Positions 55,917 through 60,616 of a DNA stretch of 64,000 nucleotides are shown here, piece after piece. The stretch spans positions 62,001-126,000 of the forward strand of contig NZ_FMXT01000005.1 of the NCBI RefSeq assembly GCF_900104335.1. The letters run 5' to 3'. The stretch's first letter is position 1; each line of letters starts with the position of its first letter. The DNA comes from Pseudobutyrivibrio sp. YE44. Lineage in GTDB: Bacteria > Bacillota > Clostridia > Lachnospirales > Lachnospiraceae. A model generated the notes under the pieces. That model searched no databases. It saw only the letters and a program-made list of their open reading frames with translations, and was not told where the DNA came from. The position numbers and the translations under genes were made by a program.

Positions 55917-56051
55917 AATCTTACTGTATAAACATCAAACGGCACGCTTTCGCTCTTATTCGCTCGTTGCCCTACATAAGATGCCAGTTTCACTGCCATC
56001 TAAGTAGGGATGGCTCATCAAGGCCTTATTGATTGCTTATACAGTATGATT
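55917..56051 (-). repeat. Structured repeat family III, copy 1
   Basis: The 83-base core at 55941-56023, read on the minus strand, begins CCTTGATGAGCCATCCCTAC and ends in GAGCGAATAAGAGCG...GCGTG. It folds into a long hairpin CCCTAC-TTAGATG/CATCTTA-GTAGGG with tip CAGT-GAA-ACTG. An outer stem TACTGTATAA (55922-55931)/TTATACAGTA (56037-56046) encloses the core. It fills most of the gap between leuA and rmlD. Copy 2 is at 60503. Confidence 0.8.
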
Positions 56052-56103
56052 AATGCCAAAAGTAATGAGTTTGGCTGTAAATATAAAACGATAGAGGATT
56101 ACA

Positions 56104-56964
56104 ATGAGAAAGATACTAGTAACGGGATGTAATGGTCAGCTTGGAAGAGCTATACAGAACGAGTATGGTGATGAAGTTGAATTCATCCTCACAGATGTAA
56201 TTGAGAGTGATGTTATAAGCTCACTTAACATCACGAATTTAGACGAGGTTATGAGCTTCGTAGAAGCCAACAAGCCAAATGTAATTATCAACTGCGCGGC
56301 TGCTACAAATGTAGATGGTTGCGAGAAGGATTGGGATTTTGCTTACAAGCTTAACGCTCTCGGTCCTAGAAACTTGGCTATCGCAGCAACAAAGGTGGGA
56401 GCAAAGCTTGTGCATGTCAGCACAGATTATGTTTTCCCTGGTAATGCTACAAAGCCAATCACAGAGTTTGATCAGCCAGGCCCAATCAGTGCCTATGGCA
56501 AGACAAAATACGAGGGTGAGAAATTCGTTCAGCAGTTTGCAGACAAGTGGTTCATCGTTCGTACAGCTTGGCTCTACGGCGATGGTAAAAACTTTGTTAA
56601 GACTATGCTTAGCCTTGCAGAGACCCACGATGAGCTTTCAGTAGTTTGCGACCAGCTTGGTTCACCAACCTCAGCTGTGGAGCTTGCTCGAATGATTCAT
56701 CATCTTGAGCCAACAGAAAACTACGGAATCTTCCACGGCACCTGCGAAGGCGACACCAACTGGGCAGATTTCACCGAGGAAATCTTCAAGCTCAAGGGAA
56801 TCAACGTAAAGGTTAACCACGTTACCAGCGAAGAGTACAAGCGAATGAATCCTGCCAGCGCAGATCGTCCACACTACTCAATCCTCGACAACTACATGCT
56901 ACGTTTAACGTCAGGTTATCAGATGAAACATTGGAAAGATGCTCTTCGCGAATACTTAGCGTAA
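56104..56964 (+). CDS. rmlD: dTDP-4-dehydrorhamnose reductase
   Basis: 286 residues. It reduces dTDP-4-dehydro-L-rhamnose to dTDP-L-rhamnose with NAD(P)H. The Rossmann motif is VTGCNGQLGRAIQ, and the catalytic Tyr/Lys pair is in SAYGKTKYEGE after VHVSTDYVFPG. Typical RmlD segments VRTAWLYGDGKNFVKTM and GSPTSAVELA follow. The rml genes here are in the order D, B, (glf), A, C, unlike the common ABCD or ACBD. GAGGAT precedes the ATG. Confidence 0.95.
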   Translation: MRKILVTGCNGQLGRAIQNEYGDEVEFILTDVIESDVISSLNITNLDEVMSFVEANKPNVIINCAAATNVDGCEKDWDFAYKLNALGPRNLAIAATKVGAKLVHVSTDYVFPGNATKPITEFDQPGPISAYGKTKYEGEKFVQQFADKWFIVRTAWLYGDGKNFVKTMLSLAETHDELSVVCDQLGSPTSAVELARMIHHLEPTENYGIFHGTCEGDTNWADFTEEIFKLKGINVKVNHVTSEEYKRMNPASADRPHYSILDNYMLRLTSGYQMKHWKDALREYLA

Positions 56965-57027
56965 TAATCGTTAATCGTTGTTCGAATGAACAATTATTAT
57001 AAATTTTATTAACAAAGACTATAAGTA

Positions 57028-57070
57028 GGCATTCAATAAACTAGGAATAATATAGAAATTAAAGAATGCC
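57028..57070 (+). promoter_or_regulatory. Hairpin directly before rmlB
   Basis: GGCATTC (57028-57034)/GAATGCC (57064-57070) close a 29-base AT-rich loop that contains TAATATAGA, a possible -10 region. The arms end just before the ribosome site GAGAGAGGG. It could be an operator or an mRNA structure. Confidence 0.4.
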
Positions 57071-57087
57071 GAGAGAGGGATTAGAAA

Positions 57088-58282: not shown

Positions 58283-58379
58283 GGCTTCCCCTTGAGGTTG
58301 CTAGGCTCCAGTGGAGCCTGTTTAGCAACGACCGAGCGGGAAGCGAGATAAGCTGTCAGCTTTGCTGACTGATGAGGTG
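58283..58379 (+). repeat. Repeat family I, single-arm copy whose end forms the ribosome site and start codon of glf
   Basis: It holds the GGCTTCCCCTTGAGG box, GTTGCTA...TAGCAAC hairpin enclosing GGCTCC/GGAGCC, the GAGCGGGAAGCGAGA block, a GTCAGC/GCTGAC hairpin (where the 14518 copy has GTCACC/GGTGAC, a compensatory change) and GATGAGGTG (58371-58379). The final G of the repeat is also the first base of the glf GTG codon. Confidence 0.85.
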
Positions 58380-59530
58380 TGAAATTGACTAATTACGATT
58401 ATCTTGTAGTAGGCGCAGGCCTTTTCGGTGCTACGTTTACTTACGAAGCGATTAAACGTGGTAAGTCCGTGCTAGTTATCGACAGACGAAATCACATTGC
58501 TGGAAATATTTACACTAAGGAAGAGGATGGCATTAACGTGCATGTGTACGGCGCCCACATCTTCCACACAAGCGACAAAAAGATTTGGGAATACATGAAC
58601 CAGTTCGCTGAGTTCAATAACTATATAAATTCACCAGTGGCAGTTTACAAGGATGAGCTCTACAATCTTCCATTCAACATGAATACTTTTTCGAAGATGT
58701 GGAACATCAAAACTCCTGCTGAGGCTAAGGCAAAGATTGCTGAGCAGATTAAAGAGCTCAACATCACAGAGCCAAAGAACCTTGAGGAGCAGGCGCTTTC
58801 CCTTGTTGGTACTGATGTATATGAGAAGCTGATTAAGGGCTACACTCAGAAGCAGTGGGGACGTCCATGTGACGAGCTTCCAGCCTTCATCATCAAAAGA
58901 TTGCCGCTTAGATTTACTTACGACAACAATTACTTTAATGATAGATTCCAAGGCATCCCAATGGGTGGCTACACACAGATTGTAGAGGCTATGCTTAAGG
59001 GTGCTGATGTTGTTTTGGAGCAGGATTACTTCGATATGGTTGGTGGTGTTGAAAACGCGCCAGAATCCTTCGAGGGAATTCTCAACGATGGAACAAAGGT
59101 TGGCTGGGGCAAGCTGATATTCACCGGTCAGATTGATGAATATTATGGCAGCTGCTATGGTCCACTTGAGTATCGTTCCGTTCGCTTCGAGACAGAAAAG
59201 ATAGACTGCGACAACTATCAGGGAAACGCAGTTGTAAATTACACTGAGGCAGAGGTGCCATACACTCGTATTATCGAGCACAAGCACTTTGAGTTTGGCA
59301 AGCAGCCTACCACCATTATTTCTAAAGAATATTCTAGTGAGTGGCAGCCGGGCGTTGAGCCTTACTACCCAGTAAACAATGACAAAAACAATGCAGTATA
59401 CGAGGAGTACGCAAGCCGCGCAATCCGTGAGCATGGCGTAATCTTCGGAGGCCGTCTCGGCCAATATAAATACTACGACATGGACAAGGTCGTAGCCGCA
59501 GCACTGGAAACAGTTGCTAAAGAATTCTAA
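58379..59530 (+). CDS. glf: UDP-galactopyranose mutase
   Basis: 383 residues. FAD-containing enzyme that converts UDP-galactopyranose to UDP-galactofuranose for surface glycans. The FAD motif is [57 protein letters not shown] and [13 protein letters not shown] segments match the family, with the substrate-binding Arg and Tyr residues present. The frame opens at GTG 58379 or TTG 58385. Both lie at the end of the family I repeat; GATGAGG would serve as ribosome site for the TTG, and is close to the GTG. No ATG is available upstream or in the first 60 codons that would keep the FAD motif. Confidence 0.93.
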
Positions 59531-59561
59531 AATTGTATTAATATTTGTGACGGAGGAAACT

Positions 59562-60440
59562 ATGAAAGGTATTATATTAGCAGGTGGTTCAGGTACAAGA
59601 CTTTATCCACTTACAAAGGCGAGCTCAAAGCAGATTATGCCAATCTATGACAAGCCAATGATTTATTATCCATTGTCTACACTTATGTTGGCTGGCATCC
59701 GCGAAGTACTTATCATCTCTACACCAAGAGATCTTCCAGTATTTGAAGAGCTTCTTGGAGATGGCAAGCAGCTTGGTATGGATATTCAGTATGCAGTTCA
59801 GGAGGCTCCAAACGGACTTGCTGAGGCATTTATCATCGGTGCAGATTTCATCGGTAAGGATGCCGTTGCACTTGTTCTTGGCGACAACATCTTCTATGGT
59901 CAGTCTTTCTCAAAGGTGCTCCTTTCAGCAGCTACAAGAACAGAGTCTGAGCCAGGCGCTACAATCTTCGGTTACTATGTTCGTGACCCAAGAGAGTACG
60001 GCGTTGTTGAGTTTGACGAGAACGGTGTGGCTATTTCAATCGAGGAAAAGCCAGCTAATCCAAAGAGCAACTATGCAGTTCCAGGTCTTTACTTCTATGA
60101 CAACTCAGTTGTAGAAATCGCAAAGACAATCAAGCCTTCAGCACGTGGAGAGCTTGAAATCACAGCTGTTAACAACGAATATTTAAACCGTGGAAACCTC
60201 CACGTAGAGACACTTGGCCGTGGATTTGCATGGCTTGACACAGGAAACCACGATATGCTTCTTCAGGCAGCAGAGTTTGTCAGCACCTTCCAGAAGAGAC
60301 AGGGTATGTACATCTCTTGCATTGAGGAAATCGCTTACAAGCGTGGCTTCATCAACAAGGACCAGCTCCTCAAGCTCGCCGAGCCACTCATGAAGACAGC
60401 ATACGGACAGTATCTCGTAGATATAGCTAACGGACTTTAA
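59562..60440 (+). CDS. rmlA: Glucose-1-phosphate thymidylyltransferase
   Basis: 292 residues, family length. It makes dTDP-glucose from glucose 1-phosphate and dTTP, the first step of the rhamnose pathway. [17 protein letters not shown] is the nucleotide-binding motif, followed by [51 protein letters not shown] and [18 protein letters not shown] 59562 follows CGGAGGAA by six bases; an in-frame start at 59514 would overlap glf and lacks a site. Confidence 0.96.
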
Positions 60441-60502
60441 GTCGATTTAATCATTTTTTTAATTATTCTATAAAGTAAGGAGCAAAACTTGAATTTAGCT
60501 AA

Positions 60503-60616
60503 CACTGTCAATAAGATGACCTTGATGAGCCATCCCTACTTAGATGGTTCTGAAAGAAGCATCTTATGTAGGGCAATGAGCGAATAAGAGCGCAAGCGTG
60601 TCAGTGATTGATAGTG
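60503..60616 (+). repeat. Structured repeat family III, copy 2
   Basis: The 83-base core at 60520-60602 is nearly identical to copy 1. The main hairpin is unchanged, but its tip is TTCT-GAA-AGAA instead of CAGT-GAA-ACTG, so all four pairs differ with pairing kept. The outer stem, CACTGTCAAT (60503-60512)/ATTGATAGTG (60607-60616), also differs in sequence but still pairs (one G-T). It lies between rmlA and rmlC. Confidence 0.8.

Follow-up and report, generated by a model that had tools for sequence, protein, structure and literature searches.

In a 64,000-nucleotide stretch of the genome of Pseudobutyrivibrio sp. YE44 (contig NZ_FMXT01000005.1, positions 62,001 to 126,000; hereafter the window), two closely similar hairpin-forming sequences lie on opposite strands beside rml genes, one between leuA and rmlD (copy A) and one between rmlA and rmlC (copy B), which raises the question of whether such an element is a repeat that spreads as DNA, a structured RNA, or both. 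The family to which they belong is real and large, and it is apparently an undescribed one that is mobile element and structured RNA at once. What was computed here is the family itself, its covariation, the inverted repeats and the duplicated target sites seen outside the genus, the presence and absence of the element at orthologous sites, its placement, an excess of G-U mismatches and the geometry at rmlC. The reading of these results to which we give about an even chance is that of a mobile palindromic element with an RNA core, which in Pseudobutyrivibrio has settled in operons and in some species forms a split ribosome-binding site at rmlC.

Core structure and extent of the family

The cores of copies A and B lie at the positions and on the strands given in the initial annotation, are equal in length, as it had said, and share 90.1% identity over 81 nucleotides (nt). 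Their likeness is not due to chance, because many more copies exist and these covary. The length of 83 nt first assigned to the element is, however, too short, as with their arms the two hairpins span 55917-56051 at the least and roughly 60483-60637. Folded with its arms, copy A reaches -48.6 kcal/mol (z -5.27) and copy B -44.4 kcal/mol (z -5.02), and for neither copy was any of 200 dinucleotide shuffles as stable. The features of the two copies are listed here, with P2 and P3 denoting helices of the core and R1 a covariance model built from 37 copies of the genus.

55917..56051, minus strand: copy A hairpin element, in the leuA-rmlD gap, antisense to both genes (fold; R1 match 55923-56043, 119.9 bits)
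55941..56023, minus strand: copy A core as delimited in the initial annotation (sequence comparison)
55985..55995, minus strand: copy A P2 tip, CAGT-GAA-ACTG (sequence; pair counts in alignments)
55946..55953, minus strand: copy A P3, GC-GAAA-GC (sequence; alignments)
60483..60637, plus strand: copy B hairpin element, in the rmlA-rmlC gap, same strand as both genes (stem base and fold; R1 match 60500-60620, 120.2 bits)
60520..60602, plus strand: copy B core as delimited in the initial annotation (sequence comparison)
60548..60558, plus strand: copy B P2 tip, TTCT-GAA-AGAA (sequence; pair counts in alignments)
60590..60597, plus strand: copy B P3, GC-GCAA-GC (sequence; alignments)
60476..60482, plus strand: Shine-Dalgarno-like TAAGGAG abutting the 5' stem base of copy B (anti-Shine-Dalgarno duplex -7.4 kcal/mol; mean unpaired probability 0.69)
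60637..60640, plus strand: second, competing GGAG, 3' of the copy B hairpin and 7 nt ahead of the rmlC start (-6.4 kcal/mol)
60648..61226, plus strand: reading frame of rmlC, following copy B (28 of 29 Pseudobutyrivibrio genomes have relatives)
56104..56964, plus strand: rmlD reading frame, beside copy A (relatives in all 29 of these genomes)

From their reading frames, we take the neighbours of the copies in the window to be rmlD, rmlB, glf, rmlA, rmlC and leuA.

The core is predicted to fold as a three-way junction of P1 (the base of the arms), a long P2, and a P3 made of two base pairs and a tetraloop. Within P2, the UU and UA of an internal loop are conserved at 99-100%, and the tip varies freely. 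At that tip the pairs are indeed compensated between copies A and B, but three of the four are changed and not all four as first claimed, the innermost T-A being the same in both. The P3 loop follows the GNRA pattern in 114 of 123 aligned rows, the others being AAAA in six, ACAA in one and loops with long inserts in two; that P3 docks into the P2 internal loop is a guess from the look of these motifs. The tail GAGCGAATAAGAGCG, described in the initial annotation as an invariant single-stranded binding segment, is identical in copies A and B but is replaced in other copies of the family, and in the model it is partly paired: it begins with the 3' strand of the long hairpin and finishes with the first part of the 2-bp GNRA hairpin. 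TGATGA...CGAA in the core as commonly found resembles a hammerhead, but this reading was dropped, as other copies have a plain stem there. As a separate observation made by eye, an asymmetric internal loop with AUGA opposite GAA or GGA repeats along single hairpins in many genus copies (in P1, in P2 and at element ends), and is perhaps a bend or a protein site.

The initial annotation had named two findings that would speak against it, namely that only these two copies exist in all genomes or that further copies show no conserved pairing, and neither is the case. There are 12 copies in the YE44 genome, and R1 has matches in 26 of 29 Pseudobutyrivibrio genomes (E up to 0.01), with a maximum of 16 in one genome. 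As to pairing, 12 of 28 pairs in the alignment of genus copies are doubly changed and 97.6% of cells pair, values of which neither was matched in 500 shuffles. In the cross-genus alignment of 119 distinct sequences, which was fitted to the model and is hence biased toward the model's pairing, 27 of 28 core pairs are changed on both sides, 95.0% pair, and the covariation score is 0.581 versus 0.170 for shuffled and at most 0.099 for slid alignments; the number of further pair types in it does not exceed that of shuffles, 151 of 500 having reached the observed number.

The covariance-model search across the family that had been proposed was run, with flanking genes and strand recorded, and gave R1 matches in 41 of 250 Lachnospiraceae genomes, YE44 included (E up to 0.001); the copy numbers per genome are lower bounds, with strict filters and few candidates scored in each. 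A second model, R2, matched 5 of 398 genomes of the phylum, these being YE44, three further members of the family and, weakly, one genome from another family. A plain DNA search matched 22 of the 29 genus genomes and none of 32 genomes outside the genus. As far as Rfam 15 goes, the earlier statement that no known family can be assigned is borne out: no match in the window reaches the gathering threshold, a permissive search (E up to 5) gave nothing over the element, and 19 loci of relatives gave nothing except a neighbouring tmRNA. The permissive search did place FasX at 58182-58322, which at 23.3 bits against a gathering score of 100, and off the element, we took as chance. Carriage as phage or plasmid cargo was likewise rejected, as no phage record matched and the only plasmid record was from Pseudobutyrivibrio xylanivorans. 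No description of the family was found in the titles and abstract beginnings of the papers listed in literature searches; it could be an unnamed entry among the thousands of candidate RNAs in the supplements of PMC8040213.

Some copies depart from the simple form. One core copy in the YE44 genome itself (L009 9508-9698; C12:133506 onward) carries an insert of about 70 nt that itself folds, two loci (L126 2853-3135 and L136 2368-2649) hold two core copies back to back in opposite orientation within a single gap, and at L100 a tmRNA gene (980-1338; Rfam RF00023) adjoins two core copies at 1379-1495 and 1663-1780.

Mobility outside the genus

In several other genera of Lachnospiraceae the element would appear to move as DNA. 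In genomes G239 and G146, the core lies inside elements some 210 nt long, whose ends are TAGGYRATTGCGAAACTC. Allowing up to 3 mismatches, the end sequence TAGGCGATTGCGAAACTC is found 59 and 45 times in these genomes versus 1 and 3 times for the reversed control, and a genome scan for shared ends found at least 80 loci, among which R1 matches 16 places. For 84 end-paired elements (with or without a core, and including five insertion-sequence copies), the flanks share a repeat of at least 8 nt at 54 and of at least 7 nt at 58, versus 1.6% and 6.0%, respectively, with swapped flanks.

No transposase is evident between the paired ends in G239 and G146 at the 40 loci scanned. The same ends do bound at least four insertion sequences of 1769-1815 bp encoding 485-491 amino acids (L229, L246, L296 and L297) and a deleted one (L280). 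Four of these five copies share 11-13 nt across their flanks and the fifth shares 7, and the protein of L229, the one examined, matches Pfam DUF772. Movement of the element would most likely occur in trans, through the transposase that such an insertion sequence encodes.

The family can be placed with a known type of mobile element on the strength of what was found outside the genus, namely inverted repeats, target duplications and an insertion sequence that matches. Like miniature inverted-repeat transposable elements (MITEs), the elements of the other genera are short, end in the same inverted repeats as a larger insertion sequence and are flanked by target-site duplications, so that three of the features by which a MITE is recognized, an autonomous relative with the same ends among them, are present there. 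What sets them apart from MITEs is a covarying RNA core, which is missing from the insertion sequence. This core also occurs with other arms, which by eye lack these ends in further copies (e.g., L089, L090 and L098) and in the genus. Two elements have extra hairpins nested within them (L147 5970-6275 and L157 1135-1520), and two with the same ends are coreless (L156 1000-1110 and L104 870-1030).

RNA pairing and placement within Pseudobutyrivibrio

Mismatches in the arms provide a means of asking whether pairing is kept in RNA, in which G-U pairs and A-C does not. To avoid favouring G-U, the arms were compared in DNA alignments scored symmetrically. Over 68 genus copies, there are 149 G-U versus 48 A-C mismatches, whereas 52 copies from other genera have 109 versus 112. 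With one copy taken per arm cluster in the genus, 34 are G-U-rich, 6 are A-C-rich and 13 are ties (p 8e-6), an excess pointing to selection on RNA. At the tpiA site, with 11 orthologous copies, 56 pairs are supported, 20 of them with double compensatory changes, several of which lie in the outer arms. In the core outside the genus, the count is 81 G-U versus 5 A-C, or 20 versus 5 without two columns fixed in subfamilies, and 2 versus 1 in a small DNA-aligned set. Taken with the covariation and the GNRA loop, these counts and the tpiA compensation strengthen the suggestion, already made from the two copies, that RNA structure is under selection.

The rml neighbourhood noted in the initial annotation is right for both copies in the window but is not a rule of the family: judging from N-termini, frames downstream of copies elsewhere presumably include tpiA, purD, fabK, fabD, fabZ, rml, pflA, cysS and sugar-nucleotide genes. 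What is regular in the genus is orientation. With reading frames called by a simple script and orthologous copies counted separately, 54 of 69 genus copies share the strand of both neighbours, 11 are antisense to both, 2 are mixed and 2 were unjudged, and 65 of the 67 judged copies lie between co-directional genes. Among 53 copies outside the genus, 15 lie with both neighbours, 23 against both and 12 are mixed, with 3 unjudged. Small interspersed repeats with predicted RNA folding are described in Streptococcus pneumoniae as BOX, RUP and SPRITE; in the portion of the source consulted, both inverted repeats and duplicated target sites are given for BOX and RUP, and the authors interpret the repeats as parasites and anticipate an influence on genes transcribed along with them (PMC3049150). 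Compared by description, those repeats are over-represented between convergent genes in that portion of the source, in contrast to the co-directional setting of the genus copies (PMC3049150).

At orthologous sites the element is present in some species and absent in others. Thirty rmlC loci were fetched, of which 3 were incomplete and excluded; a core is present in 12 of the remaining 27, and by eye different species have different core subtypes there. The 15 coreless rmlC loci comprise seven with gaps of 10-28 nt, seven with gaps of 53-127 nt and one unmatched. At rmlD, an inverted core is found at 5 of 29 loci (in G000, G013, G016, G011 and one G024 locus; one of 30 was excluded), and the gap after leuA is 2-36 nt at 12 loci and 50-148 nt at 3, with the end of leuA unrecognised at 9, in a count whose search pattern for the core picked up just three of the five inverted cores. 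Also by eye, the 3' end GCGGACTAGG of genus copies (such as L023, L026 and L011 12357-12475) runs into the Shine-Dalgarno (SD) sequence of unrelated genes, as if the element had carried some of it in.

Small interspersed repeats are usually regarded as selfish DNA, and the family could be read in the same way, with palindrome and core kept by copying from master elements and by template-switch correction where a palindrome is imperfect, and with no RNA needed by the host. Such a reading sits well with the transposon-like ends and target duplications, with the presence and absence at orthologous sites and with what is seen outside the genus, where the arms have no strand preference (109:112) and the copies no preferred orientation (15 with, 23 against and 12 mixed; n=50). 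It does not account for the G-U excess in the genus arms, the compensatory double changes at one orthologous site (tpiA), the GNRA loops and the G-U lead in the core across genera (81 versus 5, or 20 versus 5 without the two fixed columns), nor for 54 of 67 genus copies lying on the gene strand, and we consider it rather unlikely.

The window holds other repeats as well. A second interspersed repeat of about 97 nt lies at 58282-58378, 14516-14615 and 36648-36746 and has seven further matches in the same genome at 78-94% identity; a stretch similar to it by eye stands at the rmlC site of G008 and of one G014 locus. In the rmlB-glf gap, at 58182-58266, there is a long coreless hairpin, parts of which match several other places in the genome and which is perhaps an element that lost its core.

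The ribosome-binding site of rmlC

At six of the 12 filled rmlC sites (copy B, which is L162, together with L163, L164, L173, L174 and L176), the hairpin stands between the SD sequence and the ATG. In these, the 5' stem base directly follows AGTAAGGAG (with 3 nt in between in L163), and the distance from the 3' stem base to the ATG is 10 nt (11 in L163) despite differing arms and cores. The linear distance of 165-170 nt from SD to ATG is thereby reduced to 7-12 steps in the predicted fold, in which the SD is mostly unpaired at five of the six sites and mostly paired in L163. The anti-SD duplex to the left of the hairpin has -7.4 kcal/mol (-8.2 in L163), and the duplex to its right has -3.5 to -3.6 in L164, L173, L174 and L176, -4.4 in L163 and -6.4 in copy B. 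A stronger right-hand match in L173 (-8.2) exists, yet it lies inside the stem. At the coreless rmlC sites of G008 and G021, UAAGGA stands close to the ATG (-5.9). The stem bases of L165, L166 and L180 run to the start codon and are unreliable.

A comparable arrangement is described for T4 genes 38 and 25, in which, in the part of the source consulted, RNA structure shortens the SD-AUG distance from 22 to 5 and from 27 to 11 nt (PMC3014915). In both cases a structure between SD and AUG yields a working distance; at rmlC, in contrast to what that part of the source describes, what intervenes is one copy of a dispersed element, of much greater length, and its function is predicted (PMC3014915).

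The mobile palindromic element with an RNA core that we propose would thus consist of long hairpin arms with the core at their tip and would apparently be non-coding. In Pseudobutyrivibrio its copies would have settled in gaps between co-directional genes, where they are probably transcribed with the operon, and the hairpin would fold the insert out and bring its ends side by side, which may make the insert tolerable. At rmlC in some species, possibly including YE44, the hairpin between SD and AUG would make a split, or accommodated, ribosome-binding site, with a presumed effect on translation.

Several results weigh against this proposal. Copy B has a usable GGAG after its hairpin (-6.4 versus -7.4 for the sequence before it) and is therefore ambiguous, and the other six of the 12 filled rmlC sites do not have the split arrangement. 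A split ribosome-binding site as a general rule is ruled out, since the SD is mostly 3' of the hairpin at other loci, in a survey whose automatic choices of stem base and start were wrong for many rows, so that re-examined rmlC rows alone are used here; where the SD follows the hairpin, the element is simply an intercistronic hairpin. As to pairing, base composition alone predicts a G-U:A-C ratio of 1.34 in the genus, transcription-linked mutation could add to the G-U bias, and the excess in the genus core is weak or absent (23:16, and 4:7 in the DNA-aligned set). A reversed bias would be expected in antisense genus copies if selection acts on the operon transcript, and it was not seen in the 11 counted (20 G-U and 11 A-C; one further copy was dropped at a locus end); copy A is itself antisense to both neighbours. 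As to movement, the insertion sequences with the same ends have no R1 match and are thus coreless, their transposase was matched in only 3 of the 29 genus genomes, no target duplications were established for genus copies, and the terminal ends were not found by eye in genus copies, the window's included, no systematic search for them having been made.

Another possibility is that the hairpin acts as an intercistronic processing or stability element, which stops nucleases or is cleaved and so sets the ratio of upstream to downstream mRNA. The occupation of co-directional gene gaps by a very stable hairpin is what such a role would lead one to expect, and as an added effect it is compatible with the proposed element, but on its own it leaves the 10-11 nt between stem base and ATG at six rmlC sites and the elaborate core unexplained, and we think it quite unlikely. 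Less probable still is a ligand- or protein-sensing leader, riboswitch-like or acting by antitermination, in which the core would bind a common signal and tune many operons. The compact core with its conserved loops and GNRA hairpin has the look of one, and copies precede many genes; yet by their N-termini the downstream genes look unrelated and form no consistent regulated set, presence at the same gene varies between species, nothing in Rfam matches, and 11 of 67 genus copies face away from genes. A free small RNA with its own promoter, to which copy A and ten others that are antisense to both neighbours and still lean toward G-U (20:11) might point, is highly improbable given that 54 of 67 copies share the strand of both neighbours and stand in short gaps.

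The proposed element could also be an instance of something broader, which we offer tentatively and think rather improbable: mobile elements with a self-folding RNA domain may be tolerated in operons where the transcript rejoins SD and start, or the end of one gene and the start of the next, as a translation-level counterpart of splicing, with the core ensuring the fold or recruiting a host RNA-binding protein. For the family itself, some genera bear signs of movement as DNA and another bears signs that RNA pairing is selected, and with presence and absence at orthologous operon gaps the step from parasite to working part of an mRNA becomes traceable and testable. If the arrangement at rmlC is as proposed, the hairpin's own folding would cancel out some 155 nt inserted between SD and AUG, a length well above the 22-27 nt seen in T4.

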